From Undaria pinnatifida (lineage: Eukaryota > Sar > Phaeophyceae > Laminariales > Alariaceae): a stretch of 64,000 bases of DNA. How positions within the stretch are numbered: position 1 is the stretch's first letter; each line of letters starts with the position of its first letter. The notes beneath the pieces are model-generated. The model saw only the letters and a program-made list of their open reading frames with translations, did no database searches and was not told where the DNA came from. Positions 1,375 to 30,565 of this stretch are shown here, piece after piece. A program made the position numbers and the translations under genes. The stretch spans positions 1,126,970 to 1,190,969 of the forward strand of contig JABAKD010000029.1 of NCBI GenBank assembly GCA_012845835.1, in the 5' to 3' direction.

Positions 1375-1515
1375 CTTCTGATCTCGGCCGCACGGTGGTC
1401 AGGGTAGACCTCGGTGAAAGCCTTGAGGGCCGTCATGGCCGAACAGGAGCACTCGGCGTAGGAGTAGTCGATCATGATGTCTCCGAACGTTTCCGAGGGA
1501 TTAAGGCATTCGTAC
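1375..1515 (-). CDS. CAS1: Cycloartenol synthase exon ([13 protein letters not shown]), last one inside the window
   Basis: One base, 46 codons and two bases, [12 protein letters not shown] through DHRAAEIR. It matches [22 protein letters not shown] of plant enzymes. The borders are CCAG and GTGATT. The following intron enters the minisatellite at 1-1288, so the remaining exons lie beyond base 1. Confidence 0.94.
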
Positions 1516-4500
1516 CTGGCATAGGGAAGAGGGGTGTAACCATCGTACCACGCATGGCCGTAGTCGATAGGATCATAGACGGGGGGGGGGGGGGGTACTC
1601 ATTTGTTGCTTGTCTTCGCCGTTTGACCATATTGACCACGCATCCCTTTCGAGACGGAGCACCGTTCCTACTCCTAATAGAGACACCTCCAACATTTGGG
1701 CGTTCAGTACGTCTCTTCCATAAACCACATGAAACTGTTTGTTATGCTCATTTCCTTCCTCTGTGGCCGTCTGTGACCACCATCTGTCTCCTAGTCTCCT
1801 AGTAGAGGACCATGGGGGTGGGGGTGAAATCATTATCAAGCTGGTCGTAGTCTGTCAGACGATTGGCCCTTGTAGCCCTACAATGTCGGGACGAAGCAAC
1901 TCAGACTTTCACCTACCAGGCAGACATTGCGTGCGCCAAGCGCGAAGCACCTGCCGCGTGTTCGGCAAGTGGCACAACGTGTGATCTAGCATGGGTGGGG
2001 GGGCGGGGGGGGGGAGGGGGGGGGGGGGGGGGGACTCATTTGTTGCTCACCTCAAGTCATGCGACCATTGACCATGCATCCCTATCGAGAAGTGGGGTTG
2101 TTCTTACTCCTACTCTAGAGACACCTGCTAGAGACACCTGGTGGAAAATAAATTATGAGCAATAGAGGCTCCGTCCCAGGGCTTTTCACCGGTCGTGACC
2201 CGACCCGCCAGGAAAAATTCAAAACCTTGCGGGTCGAGTCGGGTCGGGTAGCGTCGGTCGGGTCGCGTCGGATCGGGTCGCGTCGGGTCGGGTCGGGTCG
2301 CGTCGGGTCGGGTCAGAAGGACTTCAAATCCCACGAGTCGGATTGGGCCATCCTTATCCGATTCGACCCGCGAGACGTGATGCGACCCATGAAAAGCCCT
2401 GTTCCTTTCCAGCCTGGCGTGTCCGGATCAATCTCCGTGTCTCGTGTCTCATCTCCCAAAAATCAAAACTACGTAAAAACCAGATCGTTTTGTATGCGAC
2501 CATATTCTGCCTGTATCGTGTTCAATCTTTTCTGCTTCCCACAAACCCACACAAGTTGAAAACAAGTTACGCATGTACCAGCGCGAGTTCCTGACAACAG
2601 CTATAGCATAGGTTAACACGTGCTACAAGGTACACGACAAGAACACTCATAATAAAATCAGATACAAGAGTCAGACCATTCCGACCCCCCCGCGCGCCCA
2701 ATCTACGGCGCTTCGCGCTTGCTTGGTGCGACGTCCACCTGATCGGCGAAAACTCGACGTACTCCGTCCCAACATTGTAGGGAAGCGAGGGTCAGTGGTC
2801 AGGCTACGGCTATACATGAAATTAGTGCACCCCCCCCCCCCCCCCAATCTACAATTCCCTCACCAGCGGAAACCCCTGGTGTTCTCGTAAGTGGCCCAGC
2901 CACCGTCTCTATTCTGGTAAGAGAGAAGAATGTTTACGGCGTCGAACAGCCGCTGTGTTCCGATCGGGGGCAGAGAACTGTCCGCCACGACAAAAGATAA
3001 CGCCCGCAGCGCCAGAACTCCCTGACGGGGGAGGCGGGGGGGGGAATGCACCGGTAACATATTTCGGAATTCATTTTTCGCATTCCATGTACTCATATTT
3101 TTGATTGGCGAGATCAACCGATGGAAAGGCAGGGGGGAATACTCGATGGATGGTAGAGCATTGCATGCGCATCGTTTGATCGTGATATGAATACTCGATG
3201 GATGGTAGAGCATGGTATGCGCATCGTTTGATCGTGATATGAACGACATACATGGCATGATACCAGTACTATTCATGGTAGCTCGGACATGAGAAATGCC
3301 GAGATAGAGTGAAAAACGCGGCCTGAAGGTGGGCATTAGTAAGAACGCAACACAAGGCTTGTTGCAGCTTCACGGCGTCAGTCGGCACGGGCGGTCGTAA
3401 CATCGATAGCAGCCTCATCATGAAAAACGCAGAGCTATCACGTAAAAACTGGCGCTTGAACGCTGTGTAACTTCGCCGCATCAGTCGGCATCGACGATGA
3501 CAACACTGCCGTTGTTCTCCCGAATATGTACATGAACGAAAAAGTACCCCCAAAAAGAGTGCTGCAGGGCTTCAACGCGACTCGTGAAACAACGCTCATT
3601 CGCCGCTCATACAGCGCTCATACAGTGCGCATACAACGATCATAGAATGCTCCTACACAATCAAACAGCACTCACACAACGCTCATAAGCGCGCATAAAA
3701 CGACTATACAATGACCATACAACGTTCACACAGAATCCATACAGCACTTATGCAGTGATTATACAACGCTCGTACAAATCGCTTTAAACGCTCATACAGC
3801 TCTCACACAACGCTCACACAACGCGAATATAAAGCTCACACAACGATCGCCCAGCACGCTCATATAGTGCGCATACAACGTTCACACAACGATCACCCAG
3901 CACGCTCGTGCAGTGCGCATTCAACTCTCACACAACGATCATACAGCGCTCATAGAGCACACAACGTTCATACAAAGCGCATACATCGCTCATAAAACGT
4001 TCGCACAGCCCTCATACAACGGTCATACATTGCTGATATCGCCGGACGCCGGATAGCGCTGGTGACAGCAACAGCAACAGCAACATACGTTGGTGCGCTC
4101 TGTCGATGGCGACATCAATCTCTCGCCAGAAGCACTCCCCTAACCCCGTCCCCATCAGTGTGGTATCGTGATGGTGCCTGCCTGCGTAGCTCTTGAGTTG
4201 CTCTCCGCCCCCAATACTATGATTGTCCAAGATTCTCAACTGAAACGAGGCGTCCGAACTGAAAAAAGAGTCCAAAATGTTGAAACAAAAAAAAAGCCCA
4301 AGTTGCGTTTTACAACCAACCTTGTTCGTGCTGTTACTACTATTCATAGTCCATCGGGATTGTTGATCGGGCGTACACGTGATACAACTTTCTTGATCGT
4401 CTTTTCTACGGTGAGGTGTAGCGCTCTTTGTTTTGAGGAACACGATTAAAAACAAAAACACAGGCACTCCGTATACCGTAGCACGGTCTGTTGTAGCTCA

Positions 4501-30399: not shown

Positions 30400-30487
30400 A
30401 GAGGGTGATCGGTATTGGTGTTGGTGTTTGGGGATGAGGGGGCGAGAGGAGAGGGGGGAGGCGAGGACACGATGCATGTATAGTCTA

Positions 30488-30565
30488 CGGTAGTCCTTGA
30501 CGCTAAAGAAGCCCCAAACCGTGAATAAAGAGCTCGTCTTGTTTTCCCAACGCCCCCCGAAACGA
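30488..30565 (-). pseudogene. Copy 3 of the cyclase N-terminal block
   Basis: Reads GGRWENKTSSLFTVWGFFSV then KDY in the same frame as copy 2. The AG of the acceptor has been lost (TTTCGG). Confidence 0.7.

Follow-up and report, generated by a model that had tools for sequence, protein, structure and literature searches.

Partial copies of exon edges in Undaria pinnatifida introns are no more frequent than local copies at other non-exon positions

The genome of the brown alga Undaria pinnatifida (GCA_012845835.1, 511,146,479 bp) contains, on the minus strand of contig JABAKD010000029.1, a cyclase gene in which the edges of several exons are found a second time as partial copies in the adjoining introns. 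The stretch analysed here, henceforth referred to as the window, comprises 64,000 nucleotides (positions 1,126,970–1,190,969 of the contig). The locus raises the question of whether splice borders are singled out for duplication, as an earlier note on this DNA had suggested, or whether they are copied at the rate of the sequence around them. The pattern is real and recurs in every gene sampled. Relative to the non-exon positions of the genes sampled, borders show no raised frequency of copying, so that a border-specific interpretation is not supported and the mechanism is most probably an ordinary one.

Copied edges in the oxidosqualene cyclase gene

When the exons predicted in the window were joined and translated, the product matched human lanosterol synthase (1w6k) with an E value of 1.3e-136 and, judged by this product, the gene is an oxidosqualene cyclase (OSC). 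Twelve exons (A–L, 24 borders) were mapped in the window and four more (M–P) to the left of it, giving 32 borders for the extended gene; the map probably lacks one exon, located between O and P. The 5′ end of the gene was not located. The most 5′ exon mapped is exon A, and no exon was found at position 30565, which had earlier been given as the upper limit. A genome-wide Pfam search for the C-terminal cyclase domain returned zero matches and missed the OSC gene itself, and is thus uninformative on paralogues. The exons in the window are as follows.

28285..28374, minus strand: OSC exon A; the donor would be GC (cag/gcgggt), with a phase-0 join to exon B
24381..24533, minus strand: OSC exon B
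22684..22893, minus strand: OSC exon C
20229..20350, minus strand: OSC exon D
19631..19706, minus strand: OSC exon E; acceptor weakly defined
14189..14292, minus strand: OSC exon F
7868..7978, minus strand: OSC exon G
6705..6855, minus strand: OSC exon H
5248..5376, minus strand: OSC exon I; no border copy found
4924..4992, minus strand: OSC exon J; no border copy at E ≤ 1e-3
2864..3021, minus strand: OSC exon K; no border copy at E ≤ 1e-3
1375..1515, minus strand: OSC exon L; no border copy at E ≤ 1e-3

Copies were counted with a standard scan for direct matches within 2 kb at E ≤ 1e-3, run with 1-kb query pieces, which may cut matches. Direct partial copies in the adjoining intron were found at 5 of the 24 OSC borders in the window (C acceptor, C donor, D acceptor, G donor and H acceptor), in agreement with the earlier statement that at least five borders of this gene are copied. 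They are listed below, with positions in brackets counted from the splice border.

24063..24121, minus strand: exon C acceptor edge, copy 1 (-3..+54), 53/59 columns identical
23834..23889, minus strand: exon C acceptor edge, copy 2 (-3..+53), 48/56 identical, with flanks similar to those of copy 1
22046..22592, minus strand: exon C donor array of ~148-bp units, 4 copies counted
20473..20530, minus strand: exon D acceptor edge copy (-15..+44), 165 nt upstream of the real acceptor
7307..7626, minus strand: exon G donor copy, tandem of 7627–7950 (~320 bp), 272/328 columns identical
7105..7182, minus strand: exon H acceptor edge copy (-14..+65), 313 nt upstream, with AG changed to GG in the copy

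Background was defined as every position outside mapped exons, and thus includes unmapped exons. A nearby direct copy was present for 21.0% of such positions in the OSC gene region, to be compared with the 5/24 borders (p 0.59), and for 22.3% in the extended gene, where 5/32 borders were copied (p 0.87; mean of 7.0 and P 0.83 by circular shift). Furthermore, 14 of the 19 duplication clusters of the OSC region contain no mapped border. The earlier claim that border copies are far more frequent than chance therefore holds against random sequence alone, and fails once the 21–22% of copied non-exon positions are taken as the reference.

Each of the four counted copies in the exon C donor array combines the last 18–31 nt of exon C and a GT donor with intron sequence. 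At the exon G donor, the last 83 nt of the exon and ~240 nt of intron are repeated head to tail, the copy abutting its source exactly. Several matches were left uncounted: one between the donors of K and L (29.7 bits), one of the D donor to a repeat at a distance of 2.9 kb, a weak fifth copy of the C donor (28.3 bits), and T-rich or simple-repeat matches. A copied edge had also been described for the 3′ exon of an MWFE-like gene in the window; a copy of this predicted exon is indeed present (40254–40336 versus 40577–40659) but is weak (70% over 87 columns, 44 bits) and was missed by the standard scan.

The exon D edge copy (window 20366–20530) is broken at an AGGT by ~25 nt ending in TTTCAG/GT, which resembles a tiny acceptor. 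Past this interruption, the exon sequence seemingly resumes, by eye, for a few bases.

The composition of these copies bears on whether they were derived from spliced RNA or cDNA. Some copies are nearly all exon, as would be expected of such a source, an example being the exon C acceptor copy (-3..+54). The H and D copies, however, include 14–15 nt of the tract preceding the AG, and the donor copies include intron sequence after the GT, which contradicts a spliced template wherever intron is present. Exon-exon joins were looked for by eye at the C and D copies, the only ones inspected in this way, and none was seen. A spliced template is the least probable of the sources considered here.

Border copies in six genes and their background

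The survey was widened to five genes of the TCP-1/CCT type, giving together with OSC a set of 55 exons and 101 borders. Members of the TCP-1/Cpn60 family (PF00118) were represented by 64 exon matches at ten loci among the matches listed, and five of these loci were used. CCT borders were assigned by script from the family matches and splice signals, so that some may be a few bases off, and 9 of 78 possible CCT borders were dropped for want of an assigned site. Among the 51 donors assigned, three would be GC rather than GT (window 28284 and one each in the loci CCTb and CCTd), as placed by reading frame and splice signals only.

Copies were found at 18 of the 101 borders, with at least one in each of the six genes. 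The effect is thus not limited to a single gene, since all five CCT-type genes have a copied border. At 101 random non-exon positions of the same genes 21.3 copied positions were expected (P of ≥18 = 0.82). Ten further combinations of score and distance, using a more sensitive scan and two grids, gave 10–16 copied borders of 101 against 14.8–22.7 expected (P 0.87–0.96). The earlier proposal of a genome-wide process that duplicates splice borders and enlarges introns is accordingly retained in part: all six genes sampled are affected and the duplications lengthen introns, but a targeting of borders is not supported.

Local duplication was also common away from the surveyed exons. A nearby direct copy exists for 20.5% of the non-exon bases enclosed by the outermost mapped exons of the six genes. 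Across 17 unselected 10-kb regions, 15.3% of bases were copied within 2 kb in direct orientation and 3.8% in inverted orientation. Order-1 Markov versions of three 10-kb regions contained zero local copies, and the copies are therefore not accidents of composition. Unit lengths were similar on and off exons, with quartiles of 125/157/254 bp for 67 clusters off mapped exons (introns and flanks) and 125/173/323 bp for 21 clusters touching exons. Across the six genes, local duplications were scarcer at 20–150 nt from borders (0.14–0.18 of bases) than in deeper intron (0.22–0.26), which suggests selection near splice sites.

Border copies should in fact be easier to detect than other copies, because the exon copy in use stays unchanged and the pair is recognisable for longer. 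Simulation of this bias (50–60 trials per point) favoured border copies 1.37-fold for tandem units and 1.35-fold for short copies, the short-copy run taking ≥70% identity and the dispersed class discussed below being observed at ≥75%. After correction, ~29 copied borders were expected and the 18 observed represent a deficit (P of ≤18 = 0.02), which hints that selection removes some border-crossing events.

Copies of sequence from the 55 exons were scored as acceptor edge in 7 cases, as donor edge in 10 and as exon interior in 1; none comprised a whole exon and none was inverted. The sole interior copy lies in the last CCTe exon, whose end lacked a resolved position. At least 15 exon bases were copied at 17 of the 18 matched borders, the exception being the CCTe donor at 1121 with ≤4 nt of exon. 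All 17 edge copies are direct, with none inverted, and lie within 2 kb of their source, 2 kb being the limit of the scan. In every listed case, donor copies lie downstream and acceptor copies upstream, in the adjoining intron. Matches spanning a border showed an identity of 0.84 on the exon side and 0.65 on the intron side, arrays being counted repeatedly, which fits one frozen and one free copy. The splice dinucleotide (GT or AG) was retained in 25 of 31 copies. The descriptive part of the earlier note, that edges and never whole exons are copied and that the dinucleotide is usually kept, was thus borne out across all six genes, and interiors were not copied as often as borders (0–1 versus 17).

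The edge copies could alternatively be the remains of duplicated whole exons, such as lost alternative exons, of which the edge alone is still recognisable. The copies do retain an exon part, mostly with its splice dinucleotide. Against this, the aligned acceptor copies are 84–91% identical and then stop inside the exon, and whole-exon copies numbered 0 in 55 exons. Decay from whole exons is accordingly considered very unlikely.

The explanation that we consider clearly the most probable is a genome-wide, splice-blind background of short local direct duplications that is filtered by selection. Units would mostly be ~100–250 bp, some events leaving plain tandem copies and others a short copy parted from its source by unrelated filler, at times with a dispersed repeat. 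Where a duplication crosses an exon border, one copy would remain with the intact exon and the spare would turn into intron, on the downstream side at donors and on the upstream side at acceptors. Such border-crossing events would be near-neutral and persist, while duplications within an exon or of a whole exon would alter the protein and be lost, so that edges alone remain. Only edges would then be seen because of geometry combined with the selective removal of interior and whole-exon duplications. The direct orientation, the same-side placement, the lack of a raised border rate, the similar unit lengths and the repeats in some gaps were observed directly, and we infer a selective filter that removes exon-damaging events.

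Comparison with exon interiors alone, as proposed earlier, was rejected as decisive, since selection would purge interior duplications and edges would win under any mechanism. With edge-only copying being what selection would leave, intron interiors rather than exon interiors are the proper control for scans of this kind.

Other local repeats were noted in the window. Two duplications lie wholly outside exons:

27357..27969, minus strand: local duplication of ~158-bp units, of the same kind as the border copies
26291..26615, minus strand: tandem duplication of 162 bp, 93%

The intron between exons L and M contains a degenerate array of ~30-bp repeats of more than 1.2 kb (window 31–1284), and short interstitial arrays of the CCCTAA-like telomere type are present in OSC introns at window 5944–6006 and 8320–8359. 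At window 60160–61121, a direct repeat of ~243 bp with copies ~720 bp apart is 99–100% identical and represents a very young local duplication; it was reported as adjoining matches of 121 and 122 bp, split by the grid of the scan.

Short copies and the gaps beside them

Tandem duplication requires homology to extend into the intron, and intron homology of more than 60 nt was present in 13 of 31 copy pairs, at 7 of 17 borders. The remaining evidence on the copies includes several points that weigh against a splice-blind background. Ten of the 17 borders with a copied edge have a copy that holds only 3–27 nt of intron (57 nt in one secondary copy). Intron homology beyond these short copies was detected at P < 0.05 in 0 of 12 pairs at those ten borders and, when all 18 short-intron pairs were tested, in only one (P 0.047). 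A plain tandem duplication of such age should retain homology in its flanks, and the absence of it counts against this origin. The exon part of the main copy was the longer one at 10/10 of these borders, compared with 153/257 in simulation, a count qualified by the ten borders having been chosen for their short intron part. Retention of GT or AG (0.81) likewise exceeded the ~0.62 expected from flank identity, although array copies are not independent.

Two sub-classes were in nominal excess at borders. With identity ≥80%, 8 borders were observed and 4.1 expected (P 0.052), and in the dispersed sub-class, in which the distance of the copy exceeds 1.5 times its length, 11 were observed and 5.5 expected (P 0.022). 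Correction for the simulated detection bias raised the expectations to ~5.6 and ~7.4, respectively (Poisson P 0.20 and 0.13).

The gaps between copy and source were also compared. Of the 937 bp from the second C acceptor copy to exon C, 736 bp belong to a dispersed repeat that has relatives on other contigs:

22944..23679, minus strand: dispersed repeat that separates exon C from its acceptor copies, matching the loci L027 and L012 on other contigs

Dispersed repeats also lie in the gaps at two of the CCTc acceptor copies, and are thus present in 3 of the 5 gaps compared. Insertions of this type would account in part for the missing flank homology at short copies. The other gap sequence again counts against the favoured explanation: ~660 nt of a 1164-nt CCTc gap had no match in the fetched sequence, within which the 235-nt H gap matched only itself. 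The 107-nt D gap gave no match at all, not even to itself, and was in effect masked.

The dispersed repeats in three of the five gaps would also be expected if splice-site-carrying mobile elements of the introner type had delivered the border copies. The repeat beside exon C matched at least 38 other genomic places at its exon-near end, whereas the exon C edge itself, the one copied edge searched genome-wide, matched its own locus only in a search that scored the best candidates. Moreover, the copies were detected through the match to their own exon and not as a shared element. Delivery by such elements is thus highly improbable.

Two related proposals would give the splice border a role of its own. 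The first is that a separate class of short border-hugging copies exists beside tandem duplication and is about twice as frequent at splice borders. Its members would carry ~24–70 nt of exon and 3–27 nt of intron, in most cases together with the splice dinucleotide, and would be placed 100–1200 nt inside the adjoining intron, separated from their source by unrelated filler. Short copies with filler were also found off exons, however, where 71 dispersed pairs lay clear of all mapped exons (a single CCTe array supplying 14), and such copies are therefore not peculiar to borders. The existence of a distinct class is doubtful; if real, it would seed introns with spare splice sites at about 1 border in 10.

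The second proposal is a border-aimed process, for example one acting through breaks at structures linked to transcription or splicing, which copies ~60–100 nt around junctions and inserts them nearby, so that introns grow from their edges. The ten borders with short copies, little intron and no further homology are consistent with it, as are the nominal doubling seen for dispersed and for high-identity copies and the invariable placement of listed donor and acceptor copies in the adjoining intron. An excess was absent overall and in each of the ten settings, however, the sub-class excess is non-significant under the simulated detection bias, and the dispersed class is common off exons. Such a process is therefore regarded as unlikely.

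The short copies without further flank homology also weakened the case for simple tandem duplication alone, and the splice-blind explanation was widened to include filler and inserted repeats. Mere decay of the intron part of short copies had been expected, and was not borne out by the flank tests.

Molecular origin and related systems

The splice-blind duplications likely originate in break repair, through fill-in of long single-stranded overhangs and end joining; replication slippage would serve as an origin as well. Small tandem duplications formed by fill-in of 3′ overhangs at breaks, with overhangs down to 43 bp studied, are described in PMC8355091. As in Undaria, they are local and direct, and they are described in that report as independent of repeats or homology. 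Unlike the present copies, they were obtained experimentally in other organisms, and filler between the copies is left unexplained in the account given there.

The closest published case found is a potato RdRp gene with a tandem duplication that spans the end of an intron and the beginning of the exon after it; the same report describes a second, 83-bp tandem duplication within an intron (PMC4974935). The case is one of internal gene duplication, or tandem genomic duplication of intron-exon segments, for which Gao and Lynch 2009 and Rogers 1989 are cited there. The potato gene is described as having gained a new intron and an inserted piece of exon, whereas in Undaria no new exon is evident from the DNA alone and the intron is simply longer. 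Introners, as presented in PMC9860276, share with the Undaria copies the presence of splice sites within duplicated intronic DNA, but are copies in many genes across a genome, in contrast to local copies that match their own exon. Among the publications listed on introns of Undaria and of brown algae, on intron expansion and on duplicated splice borders, none was noticed that deals with this phenomenon in algae, and it is not claimed to be unpublished.

Local duplication is a visible contributor to intron length in this genome. For about 1 splice site in 6 the adjoining intron holds a similar sequence, a fact to be considered when genes are predicted or alternative splicing is interpreted. The value of the locus lies in a measured example of such duplication and in a caution on the choice of control.
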